Shown: positions 25,053 to 48,624 of the stretch, in pieces
Layout of the letters: each line of letters opens with the position of its first letter
Numbering within the stretch: the stretch's first letter is position 1
Origin: Coprinus comatus
Lineage: Eukaryota; Basidiomycota; Agaricomycetes; Agaricales; Agaricaceae
Assembly: GCA_034638255.1 (NCBI GenBank)
Contig: JAWPGT010000091.1
Location: 1-64,000 of the forward strand
Direction of reading: 5' to 3'
DNA: 64,000 nt
Notes under the pieces: generated by a model
Databases searched by the model: none
The model's input: the letters and a program-made list of their open reading frames with translations, nothing else
Told to the model about the DNA's origin: nothing
Made by a program: the position numbers and the translations under genes

Positions 25053-25700
25053 TCCATAGATACGCACGAAATATACTATTTAGCTTAAACATGTTCCGAA
25101 TGTATACAATACTCGGCGTTTATGCGTGTTAGTATATACTTGGAATTTTTCAAAAACTCCATTATATTTTATAGTCATTTATATGTAGTATGCTACTACC
25201 CAAACGATCCTCTGATGATAATCGTTGGGTTAAGTGTTTAGAAAATTGAAAATCGAAAATAAAAAATATTGAGGCTGGAGTCCTCAATACACTTCCGATC
25301 TATTCCATAAGATAGCGGTATCTTTCGTCCATTTTCCCCTTTTATTTCCCTGAGAGCAAATTTTGTGCTACTAACTCTTGAATGCCTTTAATTTATAAAC
25401 ACTGTTATCGCCCTAAGTTTATTATTTACGGGCCTGAAGAATAGATGTGAAGCATCTGCAACCGAAGATTGTAGGTTTTCTATCGAAGAGATATTACTAC
25501 TTAGTCTATATCATAGTCCATAGCTCTAGACGCACGCACCAGTCGTTCCGACCGTGAGTTTCCACATCCCGAGTCGCCGAGTCGGGGCATGTCAGGGCGT
25601 GTCGGCGAGTAAGGGTTTCTCACCTTTAATTGCATTGACGCACTCCGACGTATCTGCTTGACTATGCGGAATGTTGATTGAATGTGAGTCCGAATAATAA
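25053..25700. other. AT-rich intergenic stretch
   Basis: It is very AT-rich from about 25100 to 25420 and becomes GC-richer near 25530-25620, where short cgagtcg-type repeats occur. No coding or RNA feature was recognised. Confidence 0.35.
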
Positions 25701-25709
25701 CATGTATTG

Positions 25710-29751: not shown

Positions 29752-31603
29752 ATGTTTCGTCATCGTGGGGTGAGTGACGCTTTGCTTCAATCCATATGAA
29801 TGTATCCTGACAAATTCAAACAGTTTCTCTTTCATAATTTTTATGAACGATTATTGATACTAGGAAAATAGCATTTGAAAGTATAGATCCTGTAAGTAAA
29901 ACTATTTAATGTATATTCTTATCCAATTTTGAGATATAGACCCATAGAACTTGAAAGTCGTTGATGAAGCAGCAGATGCAGCAAGATGGGAAGATTTGAA
30001 CAAAAAAGCCGAAGCACTAACAAAGGATACGTATACCATTTGGAAGGAAGAGTTACAGAACCTTCTCATTTTCGTAAGCAGTCTGACTAACTCTTTCCAA
30101 ATGATGAGAATGATAAATTATCGTAGGCCGGTCTTTTTTCAGCCATCGTTACAGCCTTCACCATTGAAGCAGCTAGGACAATACAGGGCGATCCTGCTGA
30201 CATGACCGTTCTCTTGTTGCAAACAATTGTTTCTCAGCTTTACAATCAATCGAATCCTCAAGCAAACCTTCCAATTAATCTCCGACCAGAAGTTACTCCT
30301 TCCCTTTATGCTCAACACATCAACCTCTTATACTCCATCAGTCTTGCACTCAGCCTAGTTGCCGTTGTCGGAGGAATTGTGTGCCTGCAGTGGTTGCGAG
30401 AGTTTGGTCGGAACATCACTAGCGTGTCAAACAAGGAAGACCTAATGCTACAACAACAACATCACAAGAGTCTCCAACGTTGGGGTGTTGTAACAATTCT
30501 GAATATGTTACCACTACTCCTACTCATCGCACTTGGCCTCTTCTTTGGTGGATTTGCGTACTCGCAATTAGAATCAAAATCACTTGCATCAGGACCTGTA
30601 GCCTCTCTTGTCGTTATCTCAGGTGTATTCATCATCTGTGCCACCGTTCTCCCAACCTTTCAATTCCTTTTCCTTGTAGGAAAAATGAGTCATGCAAATG
30701 ATCCTCGACCTGTCCTTTGTCCGTATCGATCACCTCAATCATGGATTTTTCATTTAATCATCCAAAAACTTTTCCTTATCACTAAACTGCCACTATTGAA
30801 GATAAAATCGGACTTCTGTAATGCATTGAACGGTATTGGTAGTTGGATGGACTATGATACAAATGGTGTGAAAAGGTGGAAAGAGAAAGCAGGAGCTGTG
30901 GAAACAATCAATCAATCATTGTTGTGGATATCGCGCGAGTATAGACAGGCGACTACAGTTGCCCTGGAAGCGTACTCTTGCATGGTATTTGCTTCTTGTC
31001 ATGGGATACGGATGAAGTTGAAGAACAAGGATACACCTGCTGATCTGAAATGGAGTTGGGAGGAGCGAGAGTTATTGACGTCATTTGAGAAAAGCATCAA
31101 TATCGCGGGGATTATCCCGAATGTTCGTGCAAAGGCGGTGATTGATGCAATGGTGGAATGGAATAGGTCAGCTGTCTCGTTGAAATGTCCTGCACCTCTG
31201 TCAGATATTTCGGCTTTGGAGAAATCCATTGGCGATATGGACCCTGATTCTCGAACAGGTAAGTCTATATATTTTATATATATTCTTTTATAGTAATATT
31301 TGCACTAGCTCTCTTAGAAGACATTGCTACTGGCATGGAGAGTTCAGAGAATACATGGGTGACTGCAGAGAATGCCGTGGCTGTTACCTGTCATGTTATC
31401 GATCAAGACTCTTGGCGTTGGGGGCAGACAGTTCCCATTTTACAAGAACTGTGCAAGCGTCCAACCGCTCGATCACTTCCTCACATACGTCATCTCTGCG
31501 ACAAACTCCAGGATAAACTTAGCCCAGGGCATAGGTGCCAATACTTGATCCAAATATTCACCAGAGTCATTCCTTGCGTGGACTCTGTGAACTACAAAGA
31601 TAT
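29752..31603 (+). pseudogene. DUF6535 membrane protein, copy 2, 5' part (split by retrotransposon)
   Basis: This is the 5' half of a gene whose 3' half lies at 47664-48624. A likely start is the ATG at 29752 (MFRHR). Exons then give ESIDP, NLKVVDEAADAARWEDLNKK..NLLIF, and AGLFSAIVTAFTIEAARTIQ with further hydrophobic spans (INLLYSISLALSLVAVVGGI, LNMLPLLLLIALGLFFGGFA, ISGVFIICATVLPTFQFLFL). The polar part QSLLWISREYRQATTVALEA and an exon opening ALLEDIATGMESS follow. Coding runs without a stop up to the insertion point in ..VNYKDI. Domain DUF6535 is widespread in Agaricomycetes and has no known function. The disrupted message would read 46 codons into the LTR and stop at 31742, giving a protein that lacks the C-terminal third. 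Confidence 0.85.
31600..31603. repeat. Target site duplication (ATAT) of outer retrotransposon, left copy
   Basis: ATAT precedes the LTR start TGTGG and recurs at 47664-47667 directly after the second LTR. Removing the element and one copy restores the DUF6535 frame (GAT ATT GCA), matching GAT GTT GCA in copy 3 near 56850. Confidence 0.85.
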
Positions 31604-32418
31604 TGTGGAGACAGACGATCGGGTACTTGAGAAATTACCATTTCCCAAGTCTTTTCCCTCCCCTAGTCTCCAGTTCAAACCTCAAGCAACGCACATTCCG
31701 GCCCCGACTACAATTTCCATTTCCAATCACGCTGGACCCTGACTCAACAACTCGGCCGTCACCACAACATCGGATGCTCCACATAGGCCAACGGTTCATT
31801 CCTTTCAGAAAAACTTCACCAGGAACAGCGCGCTCGAAACTCAGGAGACAGGGTCTACATTTCAGTTTGGACAGCTTAGCAGTAATAAAGGACACGAGGT
31901 CCGTTTCTTTCTTTTTCTTTTCCTTTCTTATCCTATTGTTTCTATTCCCTTTCATTTCTTTTCGGCGCTCTGCGCTTCGGTGGTTCAACACCACGTCTGT
32001 TCCTGAGCATTCAACTGCTCTTTTCCTAGCTAAAAACATTTTCTTTATTCATTTTTCCACATGTCCGAAACTTTAATCTATGAACACGCGTACTGCTTAA
32101 TGAACATTTCTAGTTTTGTGCCATAAACATGGGCTTCGAAGCCCTTCCTCGTTATCCTACTCTCTAGTATAAATACTACGGACGATGTAGTAGAAAGACA
32201 GAAAATTTTACCCTCACTTTTCTGCTTATAACCGCTCTCGAAACTTACTCGAAAATCGCTCACTTATTCAAACCTTCTCAAACTCTCGCTCACCACTCAC
32301 AACGTTCCCTTCTCGAACCCTTCAACAGTAGTTTTGGACTCGAAGCTCTGACAGCTGACGGACGCAGCTGTACTCGCATTTATATATATATTGTTGTAAG
32401 ACGTCTGTTTTCTCTACA
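31604..32418 (+). repeat. 5' LTR of outer retrotransposon
   Basis: 815 bp, the same length as the copy at 46849-47663 with a constant offset of 15245. The only difference noticed is T at 32335 versus C at 47580. It contains a TATA-like box TATAAATA at 32168-32175. Confidence 0.93.
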
Positions 32419-32645: not shown

Positions 32646-34961
32646 ATGCCCTCACAACCAGGTTCGCCTTCAGGCTCATCTAATCCTAGCCACAATGCAC
32701 CAGCACCCCTTCCAGCTTATACAGCTCACCATTTCCCTACTGGATCAAGTACCGCACCACCACCTTCATTCGTTCCTGCTCAGTTTCCGAATCAACCACC
32801 TCCGCCTCAACCACCTCCGCCTCAACCACCTCTTCCCAATCCTACAGCTCAAGGACAGGCTGCTCCGCCACCTACTATTTTCGTACAACAACCACCTTCA
32901 GTCCGTCATATGCCTTCTCGTTTTAGTACCAATGCTCCAAAATTTGATGGAAATCCACAATCTCTGCGCCCGTTCTTTGAGGAAATGGAAATCTTAGCCC
33001 GAGAATGTCAGATCAATCAACGGGACCAAATTATGCATGCTTTACGCTATCTGGGGACTTCTGAACATGATATTTGGGCTAGTAGACCTTCGGCATCAGG
33101 AAATGACTGGTCTCGCTTCAAGGACGAAATTATTGCAATGTACCCGGGAGCAGAAGATGAAGCACGCTGTAGTGTCACTGACCTCGAGCTCTTTGTCGAG
33201 CACCATGCATCAAGACCTATGACCAGCCGTGCTCAGTTCGGAGAATATTACCGAGGATTTATTACTCGTACTACTTGGCTACTGAATAGGAACCTTATAT
33301 CCATCCGAGAACGCAACAAACTCTTCATTAATGGGTTCCACATTGATTTTCGTAACCAGCTTCGTCTACAGCTTCGTCTCCAAGACCCTATCCACCCTCT
33401 TGATGATCCATGGGATATATCAGCTATGGAACAAGCAGCTCGCTTCTTACTTGAAAGCACTAACATCGGAACGAACTCTGTTTATCCTAATCCATATGCC
33501 TCCCAACCAACTCTACCAATTCCAGCCACAGTACCACCACCTCCATCTAGGAATACATTCGACATGTCTACCATAGAAAACATCTTAACTTCGGACGCTT
33601 TTCTTAATCGGCTAGCTGGGAAACTCACCTCACCATCGCATAATACATCATATCCTCTTCCCAGTCAACCAAACTCCCAACTGAGACGACCCGCATGGCC
33701 GTGTGGCTTTTGTTCAAACCCAGACCATATGTTCCGACAATGTACTGTGCTAGAGGACTATATTCAGCAAGGTCTTTGTGTCCGGGATGCTTCGAATCGT
33801 ATTTGCATGTCAGATGGGACTTTAATCTCTACGCAAACAATGCCTGGACGAAATATGAAGGAGAGAATTGATAACTGGCAAAGAAATCGCTCACCACCCA
33901 TTATACAAGCCAAGGTGAACGTTATTGAAGTTTGCACTGTCCCAGAAGCTTCTCAAGCATCCTACACTTCGTCTATGGCTCATATCACTTCCCCGATCAC
34001 CCAGGATGAAAACGAACTTGCTCAACTTGAAGCAATTACCCTAGCTAATCTGAAGCGACAAGAGGAGATCAAAAAGCGAATTGGAGCAAATGGAAAAGGA
34101 AAGAACTCACAAGCGAACTCAAATCGACCTCAGAACTCTTCCAATCCATCTCAGAATTCCCCTTCTACCTATCCACCCTCTCAATCCACTCCATCAGCCG
34201 AAATTCCACTTAAGCGAACCATCCCCACTCCCACCAGCCAACAACAGTATCGCTTTGCGTCACCTATTGAGGATCCTAAAGCTGTTCAGGATGTTATTCA
34301 ACGAATTCTTGATAACCCTATCACCTTGTCCCAACGAGAGCTACTTGCGATTGCTCCAGATGTCCGAAAACAGATCAAGGACCAGATAACGACACACAGA
34401 ATACCTACTGGATCACACGTTAATGCATCAATAATTGAGAAAGGTCAAGACGACAACAACACACCTTATTCATCCCTTCTCCACCAACATCCCTCTCTCC
34501 CATCCAATCCAATCATTGTCGCAAAAGAAGTTGAAGAATTACGCACCATACCAGTAGAACTTAATGGAAAGGAGGTGATTGAGGCTATTCTTGATGAAGG
34601 ATCACAAATTATTGGCCTTAGACGAGATATTTGGGAGAAACTTGGTCTTCCTCTCTACAAAGATCAAAATCTGTTAATGCAAACGGCTAACGGTTCATCA
34701 GGAATGACCTTGGGGCTGATCCGCAACCTCCCAGTTCGTATAGGCAACAACACATTCTATCTCCAGGTCCAAGTCCTCGAAAATGCGCCCTATGAAATGC
34801 TACTTGGACGACCTTTCAACACACTCACTGAAGCACAAACCAACCACTACAATAATGGGGAATCTCACCTCACTTTACGCGACCCAAATACCAATGAAAC
34901 AATCACCATTCCTACTGCTACTCGTATCCAGACTCATGAAAGCAAGAATTCAGGTTTTTAG
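32646..34961 (+). CDS. gag: Gag-protease polyprotein of outer retrotransposon
   Basis: 771 codons from the ATG at 32646. The Pro-rich N-terminus leads to a capsid-like region (APKFDGNPQSLRPFFEEMEI..). A CCHC zinc knuckle CGFCSNPDHMFRQC lies at about residues 353-366, and a retropepsin-like domain contains VIEAILDEGSQIIGL (about residue 650) and YEMLLGRPFN. Catalytic Asp is in DEGS, a variant of the usual DSG/DTG. The frame is also open upstream from 32400, through the primer site, with no ATG. The ORF ends ..SGF followed by TAG at 34959-34961, within a run of five T. Pol lies in the -1 frame and overlaps the end, so Gag-Pol would arise by -1 frameshifting. Confidence 0.88.
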   Translation: MPSQPGSPSGSSNPSHNAPAPLPAYTAHHFPTGSSTAPPPSFVPAQFPNQPPPPQPPPPQPPLPNPTAQGQAAPPPTIFVQQPPSVRHMPSRFSTNAPKFDGNPQSLRPFFEEMEILARECQINQRDQIMHALRYLGTSEHDIWASRPSASGNDWSRFKDEIIAMYPGAEDEARCSVTDLELFVEHHASRPMTSRAQFGEYYRGFITRTTWLLNRNLISIRERNKLFINGFHIDFRNQLRLQLRLQDPIHPLDDPWDISAMEQAARFLLESTNIGTNSVYPNPYASQPTLPIPATVPPPPSRNTFDMSTIENILTSDAFLNRLAGKLTSPSHNTSYPLPSQPNSQLRRPAWPCGFCSNPDHMFRQCTVLEDYIQQGLCVRDASNRICMSDGTLISTQTMPGRNMKERIDNWQRNRSPPIIQAKVNVIEVCTVPEASQASYTSSMAHITSPITQDENELAQLEAITLANLKRQEEIKKRIGANGKGKNSQANSNRPQNSSNPSQNSPSTYPPSQSTPSAEIPLKRTIPTPTSQQQYRFASPIEDPKAVQDVIQRILDNPITLSQRELLAIAPDVRKQIKDQITTHRIPTGSHVNASIIEKGQDDNNTPYSSLLHQHPSLPSNPIIVAKEVEELRTIPVELNGKEVIEAILDEGSQIIGLRRDIWEKLGLPLYKDQNLLMQTANGSSGMTLGLIRNLPVRIGNNTFYLQVQVLENAPYEMLLGRPFNTLTEAQTNHYNNGESHLTLRDPNTNETITIPTATRIQTHESKNSGF

Positions 34962-35094
34962 ATGTCGATGATTTGGTTGGACACAGCCGAGGAGATACCC
35001 TAACAACAACAAATAAGGACATACCTTCCATATCCAGCACTCGCCTCTCCTGCTCTATGATTTCTCCACTCGTTTTCACTACCAAACCATTTAC
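34940..35094 (+). CDS. pol: Pol of outer retrotransposon, 5' fragment
   Basis: This open stretch in the -1 frame relative to gag begins after a TGA at 34937-34939 and overlaps the gag end. It runs to the insertion point of the inner element at 35094 (..TTKPFT), continuing in frame after 43362 as PIHKPQEIYE. The 5-bp duplication TTTAC encodes the join. It was recognised only by placing the two flanks together. Confidence 0.75.
34953..34961 (+). promoter_or_regulatory. Candidate -1 frameshift site at gag stop
   Basis: The sequence is GGT TTT TAG in the gag frame, with five consecutive T (34955-34959) directly before the stop. Phe-tRNA on TTT can re-pair one base back on TTT, after which the next codon is TTA in the pol frame. 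The P-site Gly codon would not re-pair, so this is not a classical heptamer. No downstream structure was tested. Confidence 0.45.
35090..35094. repeat. Target site duplication (TTTAC) of inner chromovirus, left copy
   Basis: TTTAC occurs directly before the inner element (35090-35094) and directly after it (43358-43362). Five bases are typical for Ty3/Gypsy integration. Confidence 0.93.
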
Positions 35095-35729
35095 TGTTAT
35101 GACCACGAACCGTTAAGCTGAACACTCCTGGAACTTAAACGCTAGAGTGCAGTCGTGTAGGAACGTGCGATCAATAAACACTCTGCTGCAATCTCAAGGC
35201 CTTTCAACCTAGTGACCGAGAGGTATGGAGACAGAGATGTATAAGGGCTACAACAGAAGAGATTAAAGCTTAGGGCTTTAATCGTCTAATACATCGAGTA
35301 TTTATACTATTCTAGGGATGTACCTAATAATAGCTACTAACTAATTATAACCTAATACTCGTCATTGCTTTATAATCTACTCCATACACAATGCTAGAAC
35401 TGTCAACAGGAGTAGGTGAGACATCGGGGTCGGGGACTATTTACTCCATATACAATGAAAGATTAGTCAACAGGAGTAAAATGACGAAATGGATAACTAA
35501 TACTGGAGTCGGGGAAATGTATACTTCTAAGCATAAGTGGAGTCTCATACTTAGTTCGACGTTAGGTCATAACGATGTCATAGTGATGTCACTGTGATGT
35601 CACCGGGGAATGGTATGTCAAGCGGAGTCGTCCATGGTGTTGTCATTGGGAATGAGTTCGGGGAAGATGGCGAACAAGTCTTCCTCGGTGGTGGTGGTAC
35701 GGGCCGGTGGTTTGGGTGGACTCGTAACA
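35095..35729 (-). repeat. 3' LTR of inner chromovirus
   Basis: 635 bp, the same length as the other LTR with a constant offset of 7628. The only difference noticed is T at 35641 versus C at 43269. Confidence 0.94.
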
Positions 35730-36947
35730 TTACTTCCTTCCTTAAGGGGAATGTCCTCATTCTCAACTTCAGAGGTCTCGGCAAGGGGAGCCAGTGATGT
35801 TGGCCTCGGCGACGGGGTCGTAGTCTTCTCCAAAGTTTCGTCCAAAGTCTTCTTGATTTGATCCAGTACTCTGGCGTGAGCGGCGGCGTGCTTGGCGAGA
35901 GTGGGAGTGGCATCGATGATGTCTTTCACTGCGAGATCCAGTCGGAATCAGGGTACGGGGTCCTGTCAATCGTGAGCGGCGTATCTCTGGTGGTTCATGA
36001 ATGCTAGGACGCGTTGTCCCTCGATTGATTGGTTGTTGTGTCGGTTGCTGTTGTAAAAGTGTCCTATCTCCTTGTAGAATGTTACTGTCCGTTTTATCGG
36101 CAGGGCGGAGTTTAGGGTTTTGGATGTAGTGCTCCTCAATAACGGAGGTCGGGATGGTGTTGGAAGGGAGGCCTTTGTACTTGTTGCGGGAGCAATGCTT
36201 GGCATAGTGGCCTGGAGCAGTTTGCTTACAGTGGTTGCAGAAGTAACTTTCGCAATGTGGTAGGAAGTGGTTATGTCCGTTACATGCAGGGCACCGACGC
36301 TGTGTGGATTTAATTGGTGGCATGTATGGGGTCTGGGGACGTTGGCTGGGAATGTTTGGTGGGATAGTAGGTTGGTCAGGTAGTAGCTTTCCTGAGTGGT
36401 CAGGTTCCGGGCCCATTGTTCGAGCATGTAGTGGTTCCTGAGGAGGGTCGTGAGTCACTTCCGAGTCTCTAGAAAGGGTTCCGTCCCTTCGAGTCTCAAG
36501 GTTGCTAGTGCTAACATATCGTGGTCCAAAACTAACGCTGAAGAGCGAAGGTCTTGAATTTCGGGATCTGTCAAGATCCTGGAAAAGCTGGTGGAGGCTA
36601 GCATGCTCTGGTTGTGAAAAACCATTCGATTGGAGTTTTTGACAAGTGTGGGCCAAGGTGTCCCAAAGGTACAGTTCCTTAGCTCTTTGAGGAAAGTAAG
36701 CAGATAGGTCTTCCTGAAGGGTGTGAAGGAGTGTGCGGCGTTCAGAGTTGTTTCGATGAACGGATTCGAGGTCAGTGATGTATGTTTCGCATGATAGTCG
36801 GAATCGAACAAGCTGAGTGTCAGGGGAATACGGGAGAGGGATGCGTGTGGTGGAACCATTGGCAGGAGCCAAGGTTTGGGTTGGGAGTACGGTGGAGGTG
36901 GCATTGGCGATAGTAGTGATGGGTGTATTGGGAGGAGAGTAGAGCAT
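35618..36947 (-). CDS. Accessory zinc-knuckle ORF downstream of chromovirus integrase
   Basis: Seventeen bases after the pol stop a new ATG (36947) opens a frame in the same sense. It has an N-terminal polar part with helical text (RNNSERRTLLHTLQEDLSAY). Two Cys/His knuckles follow from about residue 219: CPACNGHNHFLPHC (C-x2-C-x4-H-x4-C), then CNHCKQTAPGHYAKHC with a longer x6 spacing. After a Gln/Pro-rich part the frame appears shifted by one base near 35930. The continuation (VKDIIDATPTLAKHAAAHAR.., 35929-35618) stays open through the polypurine tract and about 110 bp into the LTR, ending at 35618. The literal frame instead stops at 35769. It lies where env or accessory genes lie in other elements, but it has no signal peptide or membrane span, and the knuckles suggest nucleic-acid binding. 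Function is unknown. Confidence 0.65.
35733..35743 (-). promoter_or_regulatory. Polypurine tract of inner chromovirus
   Basis: AAGGAAGGAAG on the minus strand ends three bases before the 3' LTR start TGTTAC. This is the expected plus-strand primer site. Confidence 0.75.
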
Positions 36948-36963
36948 TGAACTGGGGATTTGG

Positions 36964-39900
36964 TCAGAGTCCGTGTCTCTTTTTATAATCTTTTAGGATT
37001 GCTCCTGAATTGGTAAGATTCGATTCAGGCTCCCAAGAATCTTCCGTAGAAGAGTATCCTTTCCAATGAACAAGATACCGTCTTGTCCTCGGGGTTCCTC
37101 GGTGGTTCAGGATATTTTCGACTTCGTATTCTTCTTCTCCATTTACGATGTCTGGAGGTGGTGCTGTAAACATTTTGCCATATACGTCATTCTCTTTGAC
37201 AGGAGTGAGGAGTTGGATATGGAATTTGTTGTGGATCCTCCACGTCATTGGTAACTCTAGCTCATAGGTGGTTGTTCCTATTTTGCGTAGAATTTTGAAG
37301 GGGCCTTCTCGGCGCTGTGCTATCTTCTTCGATTTGTATTTGATTTGGAGGTTTCTGTTATCGAGCCAGACCCGTTGTCCCGGTTCTAGGGTTGGTAATG
37401 GTCTGTTCGATCGAGCGGCCATAAGTTGACGCATGTGTTCATGAGCTTCTTGAGCCTGTTCTCTTGTTTGTTTGAGGTATTCAAATCGGGATGAGATAGA
37501 TGGGATGTTTGAGGGTTCTTCCGTAGTATGGAATGTTTTTGGTGCATAGCCATACATTAGTTCGAATGGGGTTTGAGTGCGACCAGCATGGGTACGGGAA
37601 TTGTGTGTAAATTCGAGGATAGGCAGTGCTCGTGCCCAGGAGTTGGGGTTTGCAGAGCAATAGATGGATAAGAATAGTTCGATCTCTTGATTGAATCTTT
37701 CGGTTGATCCGTCGGACTGAGGATGATAGGCGGTCGAGTATGCGGGTTCTATATTTAGTTTTGAATAGAATTCTTGCATTGACTTAGCGATGAATTGGGG
37801 TCCTCGATCTGAGATAACCTTTTCGGGAGTTCCGAATTTGGCGAATAACCGTTCTATCAATAGCTCGGCTATGTCATCGGCTGTGGCTGTTTTCGCAGTA
37901 GGAATAATTAATATCCCCTTTGTAAGTCCATGGTCCACTATGGACAATATAGAGTCATAGGGGCCATCTGGAGGTAGATCCGTTATCATATCCATGGAGA
38001 TTTGGGTAAATGGACGGATGGAAGCAGGTCCTTTTATGGGTTGTAAAGGTGCTTTGAGTGGGTGGCGGTTGATCTTGTATTGTTGACAAGTTCCACAACC
38101 TTGAACGTAGTTGTGTACGAACGAGTTCATACCGGGCCAGTAACAGTATTGCTTTAGTTTTCGTAAAGTTTCTGTAATTCCTGGGTGTCCAGCGGTGATA
38201 TGGTCGTGTACTCTTTGTAAGAGGGATCGTCTGAGAAGAAGATCATCAGGGATGACAATCTTATTCTGATAGCGGAGGAAACCATCGTCATCGATGACGT
38301 ATGTTTCAGGGATAGATGAAGACCGTTGTTGAGTGACGTCTTTTATTTTCTGACCGATGAGGTCATCAATAATGCAGATTGACGTTTCTTGTAAATCTGT
38401 GGAGAATAATGACGGGGGTAGTGCAGTTACGTCATGGTTATCATCTCCGATGGGTACGTGATCAGGTCTTCGAGATAGATGATCAGCGGGACCATTTTTC
38501 TTGCCGGGAATATGTCGGATTTCGATGCTGAATCGTTGCATATACGCTGTCCATCGTGCTTGTCGTCAGTTGAGGTCTTGAGGGTTCTTCCAACGTTTGA
38601 GGTTTTCGTGATCAGACCATACAATGGTTTTGTGTGGTGATCCTTCGAAGTAATGTCTCCACTCTGTGAGTGCTCGAATTATTGCGAGAAATTCTTGCTC
38701 TGAGCAATGATAGTTTCGTTCAGCTGGATTGAAACTTCGGCTGTGATAAGCAACTGGGTGCTTGACTCTGTTGGTGTCTCGTTGTAGTAGGACAGCTCCT
38801 GTTGCGTATAGAGATGCATCGCATTCTATTTCAAACGGTTTAGTTTGATCAGCAACTGTGAGGATGGGCTGTGTGAGAAATCGCGCTTTCAGATCTTCGA
38901 ATGAAGACTGGCATTCGGATGTCCAATCAAATACTTTGGTATTAGACATAAGAGCGTTAAGCGGATGTGCGAGGTCGGAGTAGTTTCGAATGAATTTGCG
39001 GTAGAAGTTGCAAAATCCAATGAACTTGTGAACATCTCGTACGGATTTTGGTACAGGCCATTGCTGGATGCCTTGTAGTTTTGCGGGGTCCATGGCGACG
39101 TTGTTGGGGGTGATGATTACACCGAGATACTCGAGGTGTTGTTTTTCAAATTCACATTTCTCTGTTTTGAGAAATAGGTCGTTCTTTAGGAGGATTCGTA
39201 GTACTTCTTTAGTAATACGGCGAAGTTCCTCTTTAGTTTTGGCATGAATGAGGATATCATCCATATAGACAATGACTTCTCCATCATCTATCAGCTTTCT
39301 AAACAATGAGTCCATCATTGCTTGGAAGGTAGCTGGCGAATTGCACATTCCAAAGAACATGACTGTGGGTTCGAAAAGTCCTTTAGTTGTTTTAAAGGCT
39401 CCTTTCCATTGATCTCCATCTTTTATGCGGATATTGTTATATCCTAGACGAACATCAAGTTTTGTGAACCATTTCGAATCTCTCAATTTATCGAGTATTG
39501 ATGAGATGAGGGGAATGGGATATGCGTTTTTGATAGTGTGTTGATTTAGATATCTGTAATCTTGACAGGGCCGTAGTTTTCCATCTTTCTTTCCTACAAA
39601 GAAGAAAGGGGAGGCCATAGGTGATTTTGAAGGTCGAATGTAACCTTTTTCAAGATTCTCTTTTAAGAAGGTGTCGAGTTCTTTCTCTTCTAGAGGTGAT
39701 AACTGATATGGTTTAATTGAACGAGCTTCGAATGAATCTTCGAGTTCAATTTTATGATCCCAAGGTCGGGTTTGAGGAAAGCGTTCTGATGCTTTCTTGT
39801 CAAAGAGTTTGTAGAATTCGGCGAACTCTTTAGGAACGACTTTCTTAGGGTCGTCCTGTTTCTTGTCACCAAATTGTTGAGCAATGGTGTTAGAGGATGA

Positions 39901-40455
39901 TGTTTTGACGTTGATTTCAACTGAGTCTTCTTCGTCGAGGCAGATTTTGTTCAGTTGTATGTCATCATCTGTAATGGTTTGAATTAGATCAAGGTATATC
40001 TCGTCGCTTGATTCTTCTTCTCTCCATTTGAGTACTCTGTCAGACCAATTGATGTCTGGATTATTTTCCTGTAACCAGGGGAATCCTAAAATGATTCTAG
40101 GTTTTCCGAGACTGATTATTTTGGCTTTGATGGTTGTTTGTCGACCATTAACTGTGCAGTTCAATGGGGAATAGAATGAACAAACACCATTTTTGGTACC
40201 ATCTGCATTGTAAGCAGTAATGGGTTTTAAGAGTTTCTTGACAGGCCATTGGTGTTGTTTTACCAAAGCTGGGTCAATGAAATTTCCTCCTGCTCCTGAG
40301 TCGATGAGGGCGAGGATATCCACGATTTCTGAGCTGGCTACTGCACTGGAAGTTTGTGTGGGGGCGTAGATAGAATTGGATCCATTTCCTCCGAGTTGTA
40401 CAGCGTTGAGTGGAAGAGGAATAGAATATGATGATGTAGATGGGGCAGTAGACAC
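36964..40455 (-). CDS. pol: Pol of inner chromovirus (protease, RT, RNase H, integrase, chromodomain), one in-frame stop
   Basis: The frame opens at 40455. Protease has ILALIDSGAGG (Asp about residue 52). RT has KWFTKLDVRLGYNNIRI, FFGMCNSPATFQ and the active site VIVYMDDILIHA. RNase H has FEIECDASLYATGAVL and IVWSDHENL. A TGA at 38566-38568 follows ..KNPQDLN, where the family normally continues with Arg-Arg-Gln-Ala-Arg-Trp. Reading past it in the same frame, RQARWTAYMQRFSIEIRHIP leads into integrase. There the zinc part contains HDHITAGHPG..CGTCQQYK, the catalytic core has Asp in ISMDMITDLP and ISDRGPQF and Glu in DGSTERFNQE. The chromodomain comes last (EVENILNHRG..YLVHWKGYSSTEDSWEP). The copy needs readthrough or is dead. 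Confidence 0.92.
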
Positions 40456-40490
40456 AGATGGAAGAGAGTTAGACGTGGTGGCTAATCTCT

Positions 40491-41650
40491 TTAAGCAAAA
40501 TCCTTGATTTCGCTGTTGAAATCGTCGTTCATGTTATCTTGGGAGAAGTAATCGTAGACGTCTGCTACTTCTTCTTCAGGGGCGGTTTCAATGAGGTTGT
40601 TGATCTGGCGTCGTAGATGGGGGTTTCGATTTTTGGTCGGGGCCTTCCTCTGGTTGTACGCCTGGCGAGGGATTGACCTCGGGCGATTAGGTGATGGGCC
40701 AGTTCGTCGAGCTGGGCATCGGTTGGCGAAATGGCCTGGTTTCTTGCAGAGGAAACAGAGTCGATCTCTGAATAATTCCTTTTGTTCGCTTGTGAAGACT
40801 CTGTCGATGAATTGATTAAGGATTTCTCCGGGATCAATTTGAGATGGCTGAGGGGTTTCTTCTTCAAAGTCCTCCTGTTCATCGTGTATGTTACAGAGTT
40901 CCTCTTCACTGTTGAGGCGAAGGTTATTGATTGCCTCTTCGATGTAGTCGACATCCATGGCGTACGGGTCTTTTGCGACCACGGGTGGTTGAACGTAACG
41001 CGGGATAGACTGCGGTTGACGAAAGTTTTGAGCCTGGCGATAGCGAGGGTTTTGACGTATTTGAGGGTTCCTTTGGGGATAGTGTGTCTGACGATAGTCT
41101 CTTCAGACTGAAGTATGTGGCTGGCTGCGCGGGCAGCGCCTTTCCATGCTTCATAGGTATCGGCTGGCATGGCTCTGATGGCATACATTCCAATTGTGGG
41201 TTCAAGACCCATTTTGAAGAGATGGATTTTGAGTGTGTCTTGTGTGATTTGTGCTTCAAGTGCGAGGGATTCGAATTCTGCGATGTACTCATGTACGTTG
41301 CGCATTCCTTGTTTAAACTTGGTAATCCGGGCCATGGCATCTGAGACATGGGTGGATGAGCGGAAGCTTGTGTCCAAGGCTTTGGTGAATGCTGTGAAGG
41401 TTCCCAAGTTGTAGGTTGAAGTCTTGTCGTCGTATGCGCTTTCTGTGAAGGCATGTGCCCATGTGGCTGCCGGTCCAACCATAAGGGAAAGAGTGTATAG
41501 GATCTTTGTTTCGCTGTCATGGAATCGGGCTTGATCTGCTGCATAGTAGATTCCAAGTCGTTGCTTCCAATGACTGTAGGATGCTGTGTCTCCAGCGAAT
41601 GGTGGGGGAACTGGGAGTTTGAGTGCTGGGACTGTGGTTGTGGAGGGCAT
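40491..41650 (-). CDS. gag: Gag of inner chromovirus, with a one-base frameshift
   Basis: The first ATG is at 41650 (MPSTTTVPALKLPVPPPFAG). The retrotransposon gag core follows (SHWKQRLGIYYAADQ.., FKQGMRNVHEYIAEFESLAL). Near the G4 run at 41075-41078 the coding continues one frame over (NPQIRQNPRYRQAQN.., then DPYAMDVDYIEEAI). It holds the zinc knuckle CFLCKKPGHFANRC and stops at 40491. One extra G (C on the coding strand) would restore a single ORF. The gag frame is also open for about 170 codons before the ATG (to about 42160) with acidic, Pro-rich text (SSSEEDDSDDDDPPP). The true N-terminus may therefore be longer, or may start without AUG. The gap to pol is 35 bases. Confidence 0.85.
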
Positions 41651-42249
41651 CTTTGAATTTGAGCTTGGCGAGCTGTTTGTAGTAGGTGTGAGGGGATTTG
41701 GTGGAGCCGGGGGTAATGACGAAGTGTGTGGGGTTGTTGGGTTGGCGGGAGTTGGGATTGGTGTATGGACTCGAGACGGGATAGTAACTCTAGGTCTTCG
41801 AGGAGGGATTGGCGGGGGGTCGTCGTCGTCTGAGTCGTCTTCTTCGGATGAAGATTGTTGTTTTTCTCTGTACTGCTGTTTTGAAGTTTCGCTAGATTGC
41901 GAACCTTGTCGTTGTATAGGACTAGGTTCTCCGAAAAGCTGAGATTGGGGAGGTACTGGTGGTTGTGTATAAAATGACGAGGTGGAGCGTCCAGAGTCTT
42001 GTGAGGTAGAGGCTTGGATCGGTCCGGGGATGTGAACTGGGAAGGGTTCGGTGGAAGGGGTTTCTCTGTAACGAGATCTGCTTCGTTGAAGTTGTGACCT
42101 ATCAAATTCCGGTTTAGGAACTGATGTTTGGCTGGTTCTTCGTTGTCGTGAAATGATGATTCAGAGTTGGTGGTTGCCCAAGAATTGGTAGAGGTTTTTA
42201 TAAAGGAGTGTGGGGGTGTAAGGAATGGATTGGGAATGGAAAAGGGAGA

Positions 42250-42360
42250 ACTGCTGTCTAACAGCTTGATAATGCTCGCTTAGAGCTTTTACTGACTAAC
42301 AGCTTGAGTGCTCGCTTAGAGCTTTTACTGACTTAACAGCTTGCGCTCGCTTAGAGCTTG
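42250..42360 (-). repeat. Three tandem repeats in the chromovirus 5' leader
   Basis: Three units of about 36-40 bp contain taacagcttg, then ctcgcttagagctt, then tactgact. The last unit is shorter. They lie between the primer site and gag, where packaging signals are usually found. Confidence 0.7.
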
Positions 42361-42708
42361 ACGGCCAGGGGGTCCTAATTAAAGGGGCCTGACTACGACT
42401 TACTAAATGCGTAGATTTCAGCGATGTACAAACCCACCGCGGTCCGGTTGGCTAGGATTTCAAACACCTAGACTTCCCACTTTGCTCCGGCGAAGGAGTA
42501 TCACTTTGTGAGCTGCGACGCGTTATACCAGGGATTAGCGGGTATAACGACTACCAGTATACCACTAAGAGGTACCGGTTAGACCAGAACAAGTAACGCC
42601 GTTTCAAGTTCCAAGATGACGGGAATCGATTGACTGCCGGGTTGCGACAATCCTCCGTTCGGCTCCAAGGGGGAGAGACCAGATAACCCTACCGGTCCAG
42701 TGAAAGGG

Positions 42709-42720
42709 AAGCTTTAATCT
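42709..42720 (-). promoter_or_regulatory. Putative self-priming primer binding site of inner chromovirus
   Basis: Two bases inside the 5' LTR border the element RNA would read AGATTAAAGCTT. The exact complement AAGCTTTAATCT occurs in the LTR at 42888-42899, about 35 nt downstream of a TATA box. A transcript starting at 42899 could fold back and prime itself as Tf1 of fission yeast does. No tRNA 3'-end complement was seen next to the LTR. Confidence 0.65.
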
Positions 42721-42722
42721 AA

Positions 42723-43357
42723 TGTTATGACCACGAACCGTTAAGCTGAACACTCCTGGAACTTAAACGCTAGAGTGCAGTCGTGTAGGAACGTGCGATC
42801 AATAAACACTCTGCTGCAATCTCAAGGCCTTTCAACCTAGTGACCGAGAGGTATGGAGACAGAGATGTATAAGGGCTACAACAGAAGAGATTAAAGCTTA
42901 GGGCTTTAATCGTCTAATACATCGAGTATTTATACTATTCTAGGGATGTACCTAATAATAGCTACTAACTAATTATAACCTAATACTCGTCATTGCTTTA
43001 TAATCTACTCCATACACAATGCTAGAACTGTCAACAGGAGTAGGTGAGACATCGGGGTCGGGGACTATTTACTCCATATACAATGAAAGATTAGTCAACA
43101 GGAGTAAAATGACGAAATGGATAACTAATACTGGAGTCGGGGAAATGTATACTTCTAAGCATAAGTGGAGTCTCATACTTAGTTCGACGTTAGGTCATAA
43201 CGATGTCATAGTGATGTCACTGTGATGTCACCGGGGAATGGTATGTCAAGCGGAGTCGTCCATGGTGTCGTCATTGGGAATGAGTTCGGGGAAGATGGCG
43301 AACAAGTCTTCCTCGGTGGTGGTGGTACGGGCCGGTGGTTTGGGTGGACTCGTAACA
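42723..43357 (-). repeat. 5' LTR of inner chromovirus
   Basis: 635 bp. On the minus strand it begins TGTTACGAG and ends GTCATAACA. It contains TATAAATA (42934-42927) and the putative transcript start and self-primer at 42899. Confidence 0.94.
42927..42934 (-). promoter_or_regulatory. TATA box in inner LTR
   Basis: TATAAATA on the minus strand. Its first base lies 35 nt upstream of the first base of the self-primer at 42899, a spacing suited to RNA polymerase II initiation there. Confidence 0.6.
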
Positions 43358-46300
43358 TTTACTCCCATTCACAAACCACAAGAAATATATGAAATATCTT
43401 TTCCTAACCTTGAGAATCATACCCGAACACACGAAATATCAAGCTATGCATACAAGAAAGTTGCGAACCGTGTCAAACCTGTTGCAACTACACTACCAGA
43501 AGATTTCCGTATTGTCCGCCGTATTCCATGTAACCCTCTCGAATTCATGCCTCCACTTCCAACTCATCCTCCAGACTTCTCTCCTGGTTCTCACTATACC
43601 CTGGAACATATGAAGACAATGAATGTTAATCCAGATGGATTTTTATGGCCAGAAGAAGAGAAGCTCGTTCATCATCTGATAAGAAATCAGGAACTTGGTT
43701 TTGCCTGGACAGAAGATGAGAAAGGGAAGTTCTCGACTGATTATTTTGATCCCATTACTATCCCCACCATTGAACATATTCCATGGGTCCTTCGCAACAT
43801 TCCCATTCCCCCTGGTATCTATAACCAGGTTGTCAAGATTATTAAGGCAAAAATAGCAGCTGGTGTTTACGAACCATCAAGTTCATCTTACCGATCACGC
43901 TGGTTTTGTGTGCTCAAGAAAGACAAAAAATCACTCCGACTCGTTCACGACCTCCAGCCATTAAACGCGGTCACAATTAAAGACTCAGGGGTACCACCAA
44001 TTGTAGAACAATATGCTGAATCATTTGGAGGTCGAGGATGTTATGGTATATTTGATTTATTTGTGGGTTTTGACCAGCGAGAACTTTCACCAGAATCTCG
44101 AGACCTTACTACCTTCCAAACTCCTCTCGGCACCCTCCGTCTCACATCCATTCCCATGGGGTACACTAATTCTATGCAAATACAACATGGTGACCTTACA
44201 TTTCTACTGCAAGACGAAATTCCTGACATTACAGTTCCATTCGTTGATGATGTACCTGTTAAAGGTCCCAAAACTCGATATGAGCTCGAAAACGGTTATG
44301 AAACGATCCCCGAAAATCCACAAATTCGAAGATTTGTCTGGGAACATCTCCAGAATGTTAACCGAATCATCCAGCGCATTTCTCATGCAGGCGGCACCTT
44401 CTCAGCTCACAAGTCTCATTTCTGCGCACCAACTGCTATTATTGTCGGACACCTCTGTACTTATCAAGGACGACTACCAGACACCTCAAGAGTGCAGAAA
44501 ATTATCGACTGGCCACCTTGCTCAAATCTCACAGAAGTACGAGGGTTTCTGGGAACCCTAGGGACTATCCGAACATTTATCCGAAATTTTGCTTTTATAT
44601 CAAGACCACTAGTTAGATTGACGAAGAAAGGAGTGGAATTTTATTTTGGGGAAGAGGAACAGGGAGCTATGGATGAATTGAAAGAGTTGGTGAGAAATTC
44701 ACCATGTATCCGAGCTATCGACTACACCAGCAACAACGAAGTCATTTTTGCAGTTGACACATCACATATTGCAGTCGGATACATTCTATATCAACTAGGC
44801 GATGACGGAAAACGATACCCTTCAAGATTCGGATCAATAACTCTTAACGAACGTGAAGCTCGCTACTCACAAGCTAAACTCGAGTTGTTTGGATTATTTA
44901 GGGCATTGAAGGATGCAAGGATTTGGTTGGTTGGAGTGAGCAACTTGGTGGTGGAAGTAGACGCAAAGTACATTAAAGGGATGATTAATAACCCTGACAT
45001 CCAGCCCTCAGCAGCAGTCAACCGGTGGATAGCAGCCATTTTATTATTCGATTTTCGTCTCAGGCATATCCCAGGCAAAGAACACGGCCCAGATGGTTTA
45101 TCCCGACGCCCCAGAGCACCAGAAGACCCCGAAATTGAGGATGACTATGAAGATTGGATAGACGAAGCCAACTGCTTTTCCATTAACAAAACTTCCCCAC
45201 TAGATTCGATCTCTTCCGCTTTACAATCTCAAGATGAACTACATTGGATTATAGCAACAAACACATTCGCTATCGAAATCTTAAATGAAAATGCGCAAGT
45301 ACAACAACTCCTATACTCGTCTCATCACCCCATTAATCCTCCTCTGTCTCGCAACGCCTCACACATCAAAATATTCGCAAACGAGACTTCAAACACCCAA
45401 CCATCACCTCCCCTCAACATCCCTCGTTCCGACAAAGCAAAGGCTCGCGATTTGGAGCTGCGACAAGTTCAAGCGTTGTTAACCAATCCCACACGTCCAC
45501 CAGACCTATCTGACAATGCTCTCAAACGACTCATTCGATATGCAGCAGGATTTTTTGTAAAGGATGGTAGACTTTGGAAAAAGGATGTAAAGGCGAAGCA
45601 TAAGCTGGTAGTTATGGAGGATCGCAGACTCGAGCTCATACAACAGGCTCATGACGAGATGGGGCACAAAGGTATTTTTACAGTTCGCACTCGACTTTTG
45701 GAACGATTTTGGTGGCCATATCTTGAGCAGGACGTCAAATGGTTCATCAAGACATGTCATGAATGCCAAACCCGACTCACCCACCACTTCTACATTCCTC
45801 CAACCGTTCCTACTCCTTTCAACCTCTTCAGGAAGGCACACATTGATACTATGTTCATGCCAAAATCAAATGGGTTCAGATACATCGTACACGCTCGCTG
45901 TTCACTCTCCTCTTACCCTGAATGGAGGATGCTTCGCTTGGAGAACGCTCGAACATTGGGATCTTTTATATTTGAAGAAATACTTTGCAGATGGGGTGCT
46001 ATCGAAGAAATCGTCACGGATAATGGTCCAGCTTTTGTACAGGCAGCAGAATACCTCTCAACTCGTTATAAGATCAATCATATTCGCATTTCACCCTACA
46101 ACTCTCGAGCAAACGGTCCTGTAGAAAGAAGACACTTTGACGTGAGGGAATCATTAGTAAAGGCAGCAGGAGGAGATGAACGTCATTGGACAATTGCAGC
46201 ACCTTCTGTTTTCTGGGCAGAACGGATTTCTATTCAAAAATCAACTGGATATTCACCCTACTACATAGCACACGGTCTCGAGCCTCTCCTCCCATTCGAT

Positions 46301-46534
46301 CTTGCTGAGGCAACCTATCTTGCACCCTCTCTCACCAAACCACTCTCCACAACCGATCTCATCGCCACCCGAGCTGTCCAACTACAAAAGCGGCCCAAGG
46401 ACCTTGAAAGAGTGAAGGAACTCGTTCTCAAAGCACGATATGAATCTATCCAACACTTCAACAACAAATTCGCATCTCTCATTCGTGACTTCAACTTCTC
46501 ACCTGGCTCACTCGTCCTCATTCGAAACTCATGA
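43358..46534 (+). CDS. pol: Pol of outer retrotransposon, main part (RT, RNase H, integrase)
   Basis: This continues the fragment at 34940-35094 after the inner element. RT motifs are IKAKIAAGVYEPSSSSYRSR, FDLFVGFDQRELSPESRDL, FQTPLGTLRLTSIPMGYTNS and the active site VPFVDDVPVKG. RNase H-like text is EVIFAVDTSHIAVGYIL and DAKYIKGMI. Integrase has a zinc part (HDEMGHKGIF..CHECQTR) and a catalytic core with EIVTDNGPAF and NSRANGPVERRHF. The frame stops at TGA 46532-46534 after LVLIRNS. The same frame then resumes with PRYFGPMVVLKRTTGGSYIL and FAAFRLIPYHPRDL, which belongs to the same protein, so the stop is a nonsense change, probably CGA to TGA. Beyond it the frame stays open into the LTR to 46987. 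A start at 43238 would lie in the inner LTR and is not the native one. Confidence 0.9.
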   Translation, partial: FTPIHKPQEIYEISFPNLENHTRTHEISSYAYKKVANRVKPVATTLPEDFRIVRRIPCNPLEFMPPLPTHPPDFSPGSHYTLEHMKTMNVNPDGFLWPEEEKLVHHLIRNQELGFAWTEDEKGKFSTDYFDPITIPTIEHIPWVLRNIPIPPGIYNQVVKIIKAKIAAGVYEPSSSSYRSRWFCVLKKDKKSLRLVHDLQPLNAVTIKDSGVPPIVEQYAESFGGRGCYGIFDLFVGFDQRELSPESRDLTTFQTPLGTLRLTSIPMGYTNSMQIQHGDLTFLLQDEIPDITVPFVDDVPVKGPKTRYELENGYETIPENPQIRRFVWEHLQNVNRIIQRISHAGGTFSAHKSHFCAPTAIIVGHLCTYQGRLPDTSRVQKIIDWPPCSNLTEVRGFLGTLGTIRTFIRNFAFISRPLVRLTKKGVEFYFGEEEQGAMDELKELVRNSPCIRAIDYTSNNEVIFAVDTSHIAVGYILYQLGDDGKRYPSRFGSITLNEREARYSQAKLELFGLFRALKDARIWLVGVSNLVVEVDAKYIKGMINNPDIQPSAAVNRWIAAILLFDFRLRHIPGKEHGPDGLSRRPRAPEDPEIEDDYEDWIDEANCFSINKTSPLDSISSALQSQDELHWIIATNTFAIEILNENAQVQQLLYSSHHPINPPLSRNASHIKIFANETSNTQPSPPLNIPRSDKAKARDLELRQVQALLTNPTRPPDLSDNALKRLIRYAAGFFVKDGRLWKKDVKAKHKLVVMEDRRLELIQQAHDEMGHKGIFTVRTRLLERFWWPYLEQDVKWFIKTCHECQTRLTHHFYIPPTVPTPFNLFRKAHIDTMFMPKSNGFRYIVHARCSLSSYPEWRMLRLENARTLGSFIFEEILCRWGAIEEIVTDNGPAFVQAAEYLSTRYKINHIRISPYNSRANGPVERRHFDVRESLVKAAGGDERHWTIAAPSVFWAERISIQKSTGYSPYYIAHGLEPLLPFDLAEATYLAPSLTKPLSTTDLIATRAVQLQKRPKDLERVKELVLKARYESIQHFNNKFASLIRDFNFSPGSLVLIRNS

Positions 46535-46848: not shown

Positions 46849-47663
46849 TGTGGAGACAGACGATCGGGTACTTGAGAAATTACCATTTCCCAAGTCTTTT
46901 CCCTCCCCTAGTCTCCAGTTCAAACCTCAAGCAACGCACATTCCGGCCCCGACTACAATTTCCATTTCCAATCACGCTGGACCCTGACTCAACAACTCGG
47001 CCGTCACCACAACATCGGATGCTCCACATAGGCCAACGGTTCATTCCTTTCAGAAAAACTTCACCAGGAACAGCGCGCTCGAAACTCAGGAGACAGGGTC
47101 TACATTTCAGTTTGGACAGCTTAGCAGTAATAAAGGACACGAGGTCCGTTTCTTTCTTTTTCTTTTCCTTTCTTATCCTATTGTTTCTATTCCCTTTCAT
47201 TTCTTTTCGGCGCTCTGCGCTTCGGTGGTTCAACACCACGTCTGTTCCTGAGCATTCAACTGCTCTTTTCCTAGCTAAAAACATTTTCTTTATTCATTTT
47301 TCCACATGTCCGAAACTTTAATCTATGAACACGCGTACTGCTTAATGAACATTTCTAGTTTTGTGCCATAAACATGGGCTTCGAAGCCCTTCCTCGTTAT
47401 CCTACTCTCTAGTATAAATACTACGGACGATGTAGTAGAAAGACAGAAAATTTTACCCTCACTTTTCTGCTTATAACCGCTCTCGAAACTTACTCGAAAA
47501 TCGCTCACTTATTCAAACCTTCTCAAACTCTCGCTCACCACTCACAACGTTCCCTTCTCGAACCCTTCAACAGTAGTTTCGGACTCGAAGCTCTGACAGC
47601 TGACGGACGCAGCTGTACTCGCATTTATATATATATTGTTGTAAGACGTCTGTTTTCTCTACA
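46849..47663 (+). repeat. 3' LTR of outer retrotransposon
   Basis: 815 bp, nearly identical to 31604-32418 and followed directly by the ATAT duplication. No convincing polypurine tract was seen just upstream; only the short CCAGGAGA lies there. Confidence 0.93.
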
Positions 47664-48624
47664 ATATTGCACCAATACTTGAAAGGTTACTTGTGAAACG
47701 TGATGAATGCTTTATTAACTGGTGTTCGTCTCTTCTCTGCTCTGCTATCTCTCTCTGACCACCATTCCTCCTCAGTCACTGCAAAACACTTCCTCAAAAT
47801 CATAGAAGACCTTGTCTCGAAGCATCTAATTGGCCAAGAATGGTCATTGGATGGCATCTTTCTCTACACTAAACACATCCTACAACACTCATATAGGTTA
47901 TCCCTCATACTTCCTTCCATCGAAACAACCCTCACCGCAATCCTCTCTGCTGCAGAAGAATACGCTCAACATTCTCCCTCAGAATATTCTGTCCTGCACC
48001 CAAATCGATTCATCATTCCACATACACTACCTAGACCTGGCTTCAATGAAGACCTCAGATCTGTGTGGGCGATGATAGACAACTTCAACGTGAGATTGAA
48101 GGAGGTATGGGGCATATATGAGGTCGTTGAGCCTAGCAGTAATAGATCAGGAAGCGTAGAGCATATATCGACTTCTGGTATGTCACAAGTTTATCTCTTC
48201 CCGTCATGTGTCTAATGGTTTGCTCACAGTCGAAGACTTACACCATGAAACAACTGGCCGAGTCGTTCCTGCCACACAGTCTACGGAGGATCTACTCACG
48301 GTCACTACACCCTCCTTATCAGCTCCTTTGCAATCAAACGAATTTCATGAAACAGCTACTACATTGGGCATTGGCGCTCAAAATCCAGTTTCACCCGTTC
48401 TCTCATCATCGCAAGATTTTGAACTTTATTCATCCAATACCCTTTTGGCTATGCTTGCTCATCATCGGGCCGAGCAAGAAAACCTACTTGCCCAACTACC
48501 AGTCACAAACACGATTCAAATTTCCGAGATCCAACATGGCACTATGTCCAGTCACCCCACATTACTTCTTCCCGACGACACATCTACCAATCAAGATTCA
48601 CACGTTATCACTCCCCCTTCATAA
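47664..48624 (+). pseudogene. DUF6535 membrane protein, copy 2, 3' part
   Basis: Directly after the second LTR the coding resumes IAPILERLLVKRDECFIN. A roughly 50-nt intron (donor gttcgt, acceptor cctcag, as in copy 3) joins to TAKHFLKIIEDLVSKHLIGQ, then LHPNRFIIPHTLPRPGFN and ..HISTS. A last intron leads to VEDLHHETTGRVVPATQSTE and the stop at 48622-48624. No stop or frameshift other than the insertion is seen, so the gene was probably functional until the element arrived. Confidence 0.85.

Follow-up and report, generated by a model that had tools for sequence, protein, structure and literature searches.

The window, a 64,000-nt stretch of a Coprinus comatus contig (host assembly 35.7 Mb, 134 contigs), contains an LTR retrotransposon of the Ty3/gypsy chromovirus type on the minus strand (Table 1). 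Its LTRs (635 and 635 bp) carry a single difference. The coding order is gag, protease–reverse transcriptase (RT)–RNase H, and integrase followed by an SH3 domain and a chromodomain; the chromodomain at the integrase C-terminus was identified in the window copy itself (PF00385, 6.3e-15). This copy is defective: its gag is split over two frames, and RNase H and integrase are separated by one in-frame stop. Other copies in the genome have longer uninterrupted pol frames. At 18 of 30 RT loci resembling that of the window element, pol lies in the −1 frame of the zinc-knuckle (CCHC) frame with an overlap, which is 40 nt long in 15 of them. The remaining 12 loci comprise two with a −1 arrangement without overlap, three with both parts in the same frame without overlap, two in the third frame without overlap and five with no pair; several of the loci outside the 18 are partial or decayed. 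Agaricus bisporus provided the best match of the RT to known sequences (61% identity over 87%), and among the best 120 of 2479 matches all other recognised fungal names were basidiomycetes. The window element likely belongs to the Tf1/sushi group.

The window element is inserted in another Ty3-like element, which lies on the plus strand. Diverged repeats, 75–77% identical, are found on both sides of the nested pair (25695–26518, 29945–30759, 55168–55999, 27401–27763 and 47675–48037), and this stretch looks rich in retroelements. Diverged copies elsewhere in the genome (L049, L051, L055, L058 and L059), as well as several RT matches of 68–77% identity, contain in-frame stops that are mostly TGA. 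This bias suggests decay by C-to-T changes, e.g. methylation-driven or RIP-like mutation in the host.

Table 1. Positions in the window of the features of the nested element and of the element surrounding it
Feature	Position	Strand	Remarks
LTR retrotransposon, Ty3/gypsy chromovirus type	35095..43357	-	LTR pair and identical TTTAC flanks
5-bp target duplication TTTAC	35090-35094 and 43358-43362		flanks whole insertion
5′ LTR, TGTTACGA...TCATAACA	42723..43357	-	RNA-sense end is TCATAACA
TATAAATA box	42927..42934	-	same box in sets A, B, C and F1
U3 arm GATTAAAGC	42903..42911	-	complementary to primer +3 to +11; possible 9-bp hairpin with 5-nt loop across the putative start
Putative self-primer AAGCTTTAATCT	42888..42899	-	would be first 12 nt of RNA; perfect complement of 42709-42720
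Spacer TT, 2 nt, from LTR end to primer-binding site	42721..42722	-	
Primer-binding site AGATTAAAGCTT	42709..42720	-	2 nt past 5′ LTR; RNA sense 42720-42709
gag, capsid part	40565..41650	-	Retrotrans_gag 1.1e-11, Ty3_capsid 6.4e-10
gag, zinc-knuckle part	40491..40982	-	zf-CCHC 1.6e-4; frame differs from capsid part in this copy
Protease, reverse transcriptase, RNase H	38566..40455	-	RVP_2, RVT_1, RT_RNaseH_2, RT_RNaseH
Integrase, SH3 (Tf2-1-like), chromodomain	36964..38541	-	Integrase_H2C2 4.5e-21, rve 1.8e-9, SH3_Tf2-1 1.2e-15, Chromo 6.3e-15
Likely polypurine tract AAGGAAGGAAGTAA	35730..35743	-	before 3′ LTR; role suggested by position
3′ LTR	35095..35729	-	
U3 arm in 3′ LTR	35275..35283	-	can fold with 35260-35271 near RNA 3′ end
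Primer-sequence copy in 3′ LTR	35260..35271	-	3′ R region of RNA
Surrounding element, LTRs	about 31604-32418 and 46849-47663	+	...CA taken as end; 99.9% identical
Surrounding element, gag-protease	32646-34961	+	
Surrounding element, RNase H-integrase, weak RT match	43238-46534	+	

The probable primer-binding site and its complement in the LTR

A sequence-only reading of this locus had claimed that a 12-mer beside the 5′ LTR is exactly complementary to a 12-mer within the LTR, about 35 nt after a TATA box. Both parts of this claim held: the two 12-mers are perfect complements at the places proposed (Table 1), and the first base of the LTR 12-mer lies 35 nt past the first base of the box. A 12-nt complement starting 0–5 nt past the LTR was obtained in 0 of 1000 dinucleotide shuffles of the window LTR. 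One study, in its accessible part, takes as the sequence criterion for self-priming a stretch of 10 bp or more that complements the 5′ LTR and begins 0–5 bp past it (PMC6317226); the window element has 12 bp at an offset of 2.

Related families were located via their RT in the same genome, and the LTR edges were read piecewise. The sets are A, the family of the window element, and three related families, B, C and F, the last of which was split into F1 and F2. RT identity to A is about 71–74% for B and 53–60% for C. The F LTR lies beside an RT that is 73% identical and is 61% alignable to the A LTR over 242 nt; the F1 and F2 LTRs are 75% identical to each other. LTR pairs were found for B and C, and the end of the F LTR was set, without an LTR pair, where other copies stop matching. 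Family-C LTRs also adjoin inverted LTR pieces on contig C10 (862724–863481 and 871327–872192), an arrangement that suggests nested or rearranged insertions.

Table 2. Site, primer and U3 arm in the five sets, with predicted pairing probabilities of the leader RNA
Property	A	B	C	F1	F2
Primer	AAGCTTTAATCT	AAGCTTCAAGTT	AGCTTAATAC	AGGCTTTTAACT	AAGCTTTTAACT
Binding site	AGATTAAAGCTT	AACTTGAAGCTT	GTATTAAGCT	AGTTAAAAGCCT	AGTTAAAAGCTT
Matches within own pair	12/12	12/12	10/10	12/12	12/12
Shuffles (of 1000) reaching observed complement 0-5 nt past LTR	0	0	5	0	2
TATA to matched stretch (nt)	35	35	35	34	35 (uncertain by 2; box is TATATATA)
Longest tRNA match, first 25 nt past LTR (nt)	6	6	6	7	7
Arm:primer pairing (bp)	9	7	7	9 (loop 3)	9
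Primer:site pairing, start at putative +1	0.95	0.96	0.99	0.28	0.42
Primer:site pairing, start at U3 arm	0.91	0.96	0.96	0.31	0.00
Primer:site pairing, start at TATA	0.90	0.08	0.00	0.36	0.00
Arm hairpin in U3/R piece	0.75	0.58	0.67	0.00	0.73
3′ primer copy taking site, two-strand folding, arm kept single-stranded	0.00	0.01	0.00	0.33	0.40

Alignment of other copies for compensatory changes had been proposed as a check of the sequence-only reading. In this comparison both sites differed between families and always matched within a set, and the spacer from LTR to site was 2 nt in all five sets (Table 2). When each binding site was paired with the primer of another set, 7–11 of 12 bases matched among A, B, F1 and F2, and 3–5 where C was involved. 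F1 and F2 differ by one compensated pair at primer position +2. The earlier caveat that six of the 12 bases form a palindrome (AAGCTT) is fair, yet the palindrome is not essential, as F1 has the non-palindromic AGGCTT with its binding site changed to match. Chance or a palindrome artefact as the source of the complementarity was ruled out by the shuffles together with the family comparison.

The primer was present after the TATA box at all loci of A (30/30), B (11/11) and C (19/19), and at five (F1) and four (F2) of the same 11 F loci. Primer-bearing loci that also have AACA, 2 nt and the exact complement numbered 30/30 in A, 9/11 in B and 16/19 in C; the corresponding counts for F were two (F1) and one (F2) of the same 11, i.e. 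the F evidence comes from the three of these 11 that have a site. The C loci without the full pattern are L062 and L064, which are 3′ side LTRs, and L085, in which the site is intact and the LTR end is altered. Loci devoid of the site include 3′ LTRs and LTRs adjoining other DNA. Exceptions in F are L143, without hairpin and primer, L140, with T instead of A at +1, and L146, with a mismatch in the arm. As the A loci are the best matches of a query containing both sites, their 30/30 represents conservation and not independent evidence; unlike this uniformity, the differences between families are independent evidence. Slices of two other Ty3-like groups without an LTR pair (L133–L136), a locus matching none of the A, B and C LTRs and lacking the primer (L069), and partial second matches of L009, L021 and L078 were excluded from the counts. 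Relatives in other genome contigs amounted to four distant loci. No convincing combination of primer and site was found in any of them (one, L147, gave low-complexity A+T matches only), and no relatives were found in viral contigs.

In a self-primed cycle, plus-strand synthesis can rewrite the site from the primer. Because the site is rewritable in this way, a matched change is expected from copying as well as from selection. By either route, the matched changes seen between these families point to use of the pair in priming.

The usual mode for LTR elements is priming by a host tRNA, as in Ty3 of Saccharomyces cerevisiae, and either the 3′ end or an internal fragment of a tRNA could serve the window element. 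The sequence-only reading had found no tRNA complement adjoining the LTR, and our results bear this out for the tRNA genes compared. The 25 nt that follow the window LTR were compared with 40 of the 64 listed tRNA genes (37 distinct, 13 of the 20 amino-acid types). The longest run matched was 6 nt, or 7 nt with both strands of each tRNA gene considered, and TGG first occurs 23 nt past the LTR. The first 20 nt past the LTR are free of TGG in all five sets, whose tRNA matches were no better than those of shuffles (mean 7.2–7.4 nt). A single 69-kb contig of the host assembly (C100), perhaps the mitochondrial genome, carries at least 10 of these 64 tRNA matches.

The surrounding element has a tRNA-Lys site. 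Its LTR edge reads ...CTACA AC TGGAGCCCACCGCG, of which 11 nt match the 3′ end of a tRNA-Lys(UUU) gene and 14 match with CCA added; 0 of 300 shuffles reached 11. ARAGORN places the end of this tRNA-Lys one base later, and the match to the charged end is then 11 nt. No self-complement above 8 nt was found in this element, nor any complement of at least 9 nt to its own LTR past the LTR edge. The surrounding element is therefore a positive control, i.e. the tRNA test detects a tRNA site where one is present. With shuffle-like matches of 6–7 nt and no early TGG in five sets, measured against 40 of the 64 listed tRNA genes, tRNA priming of the window element is scarcely credible. As a separate observation, the LTRs of the surrounding element contain AAACTTTAATCT (32068–32079 and 47313–47324), which is one mismatch from the primer of the window element and lies about 100 nt upstream of the surrounding element's own TATA box.

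The position of the matched stretch relative to the TATA box bears on the 5′ end of the RNA. The putative +1 is the A at 42899, and a pyrimidine precedes +1 in all exact primers counted. Such TATA spacing together with a pyrimidine–A step has the look of a Pol II start. The constant 34–35-nt spacing and this step argue for a probable start at 42899.

By analogy with Tf1, Pol II would start the RNA at this A, and its first 12 nt would fold back onto the complementary site that lies past the 5′ LTR and its 2-nt spacer. The RNase H of the element would then cut the RNA after about nucleotide 11–12, and the freed 3′ end would prime the minus strand, which would be copied across the two spacer bases and on into U5 and R. 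In this scheme the start site, the RNase H cut and the priming step are all modelled on Tf1. The exact complementarity, the fixed geometry, the matched differences between families and the absence of a fit to the tRNAs compared are observed directly, and as a description of mechanism the label 'Tf1-like' holds. It is thus very probable that this chromodomain Ty3/gypsy element primes its own reverse transcription in the manner of Tf1.

Leader folding and the U3 arm

The predicted fold of a 220-nt leader starting at 42899 (−58.2 kcal/mol, z −1.67) is closed by the 12-bp primer:site helix; 11 of 200 shuffles were as stable, and the overall stability is not exceptional. The folds contain a central duplex in A, B and C, and have no common pair of the flanking duplexes known as the 'pretzel'. 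Points that weigh against self-priming include the weak predicted pairing in F1 and F2, the 10 matched bases of C, the few shuffles that equal the match in C and F2 (Table 2), the small number of F loci with a site, the altered F loci L143 and L140, and the flanking duplexes, which were not clearly seen.

The self-complementarity could also be used with a primer that is cut out of a longer RNA by internal cleavage, or is supplied by another RNA molecule of the particle. Sequence cannot tell pairing in cis from pairing in trans, and the arm-started RNAs of A, B and C are still predicted to pair (0.91–0.96). However, the near-constant TATA distance and the pyrimidine–A step in each set point to a 5′ end, and in F2 the predicted pairing is lost when the RNA starts at the arm (0.42 to 0.00). 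We regard an internal or trans primer as very unlikely, and the 5′ end of the RNA as the probable primer.

Just upstream of the putative start lies a third segment, the U3 arm, whose sequence complements the inner bases of the primer. An equivalent arm was found in the reference LTR of all five sets; it lies in U3 and ends 1–4 nt before the putative start. A 61-nt piece of the window 3′ LTR was predicted to fold into the arm hairpin (−12.3 kcal/mol, z −3.16). Among hairpin sites in the LTR with at least 7 bp and a 3–8-nt loop, the arm stands alone in A and B, and there are others in C (two), F1 (one) and F2 (two); shuffled LTRs (200 per set) contained a mean of 0.23–0.42 of them at any position. 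Between A, B, C and F, arm and primer vary together. F1 and F2 share the same arm despite their differences at the site and at primer position +2, which shows that the arm does not simply duplicate the site. Three of the 11 B LTRs have an A-to-G difference in the arm that keeps a G–U pair.

The inverted repeat formed by arm and primer could instead be a DNA promoter element, i.e. a palindromic factor site or initiator, with the match past the LTR secondary or accidental. The repeat does straddle the putative start 34–35 nt after TATA in each set, and AAGCTT is palindromic in A, B and F2. Yet a promoter role leaves unexplained why site and primer differ together in every set, as well as the change of both primer and site at +2 between F1 and F2 with an identical arm. 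We consider this explanation most improbable, and retain self-priming for the pair of primer and site.

A transcript that begins at the proper base lacks the arm at its 5′ end, because the arm lies before the start. The arm adjoins every primer copy that is not 5′-terminal, i.e. the copy in the 3′ LTR and those in RNAs started too far upstream. One possibility, which we offer tentatively and hold to be unlikely, is that site, primer and arm form a three-part code, in which the arm hairpin would lock primers that are not 5′-terminal so that only a precisely started RNA could prime, amounting to a check of the start site. Folding agrees with such a check in part. RNAs started at TATA lose the predicted pairing in B, C and F2, not in A and F1, and arm-started RNAs lose it in F2 alone. 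In two-strand folding with the arm kept single-stranded, the 3′ primer copy takes the site in F1 and F2 and hardly does so in A, B and C (Table 2); masking of the 3′ copy would thus matter in the former two, not in the latter three.

The arm could also be an unselected by-product, arising for example when strong-stop DNA snaps back during copying at the end of the RNA. Its conservation within families is unexceptional, as 36% of equal-length LTR windows in B (11 LTRs) and 16% in F (10 LTRs, L143 left out) were at least as conserved. However, an arm matched to the primer is present in the reference of all five sets, of which A, B and F look related, so that they are not five independent origins, and a by-product would need to be regenerated at each primer change. 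This origin of the arm is also doubtful in our estimation. No description of a U3 arm pairing with a self-primer was found in the accessible portions of the open-access literature searched, and the promoter arm may be the sole part of this finding that is new. The start-check reading of this third matching promoter segment gives a testable idea for how a right RNA end might be told from wrong copies. The regulation of Tf2 by alternative start sites is reportedly the subject of a 2016 study by Persson et al.

Comparison with known elements

The very probable self-priming of the window element would be a fresh example of a known, uncommon mechanism, to which the present comparison adds sequence-covariation evidence in several related families of a basidiomycete. 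The parts of the literature available list self-priming as a shared trait of the Tf1/sushi group and of most related plant elements (PMC10085805, PMC6317226; also PMC4600332, PMC3601003). The closest model is Tf1 of Schizosaccharomyces pombe with its fission-yeast relatives, which likewise have a chromodomain integrase. As far as the accessible text goes, the first 11 bases of Tf1 anneal to the site, with RNase H cleavage between bases 11 and 12 (PMC7175516), whereas 12 bases are matched here (10 in family C). Available sections of another study describe for Tf1 relatives a central duplex between self-primer and binding site, and two further duplexes of binding-site-adjacent with LTR sequence that complete the 'pretzel' (PMC10085805). 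Pairing of a U3 arm with the primer is predicted here, and no mention of it was found for Tf1 and its relatives in the portions of the sources at hand. Gag and pol form one frame in Tf1 and Tf2 and are separated by a stop codon in other fission-yeast members, in contrast to the −1 frame found here; according to the part of PMC10085805 available, a −1 gag-pol frameshift predominates in Tf1/sushi members outside fission yeast.

Among basidiomycete elements, Tcn1 of Cryptococcus neoformans is a parallel by its proposed self-priming, and Tcn2–5 possibly use a novel kind of priming, going by the accessible part of PMC7175516. For plant elements of the Tcn1 clade, the available text of PMC6317226 predicts self-priming for most. 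MarY1, Laccy1 and Laccy2 are named as basidiomycete chromovirus clades in the sections of PMC2864245 available; their host group is probably the same as that of the window element. For Ty3 of S. cerevisiae, a relative by its RT/RNase H, the structure is known (7q5b, 4ol8; E about 3e-70).
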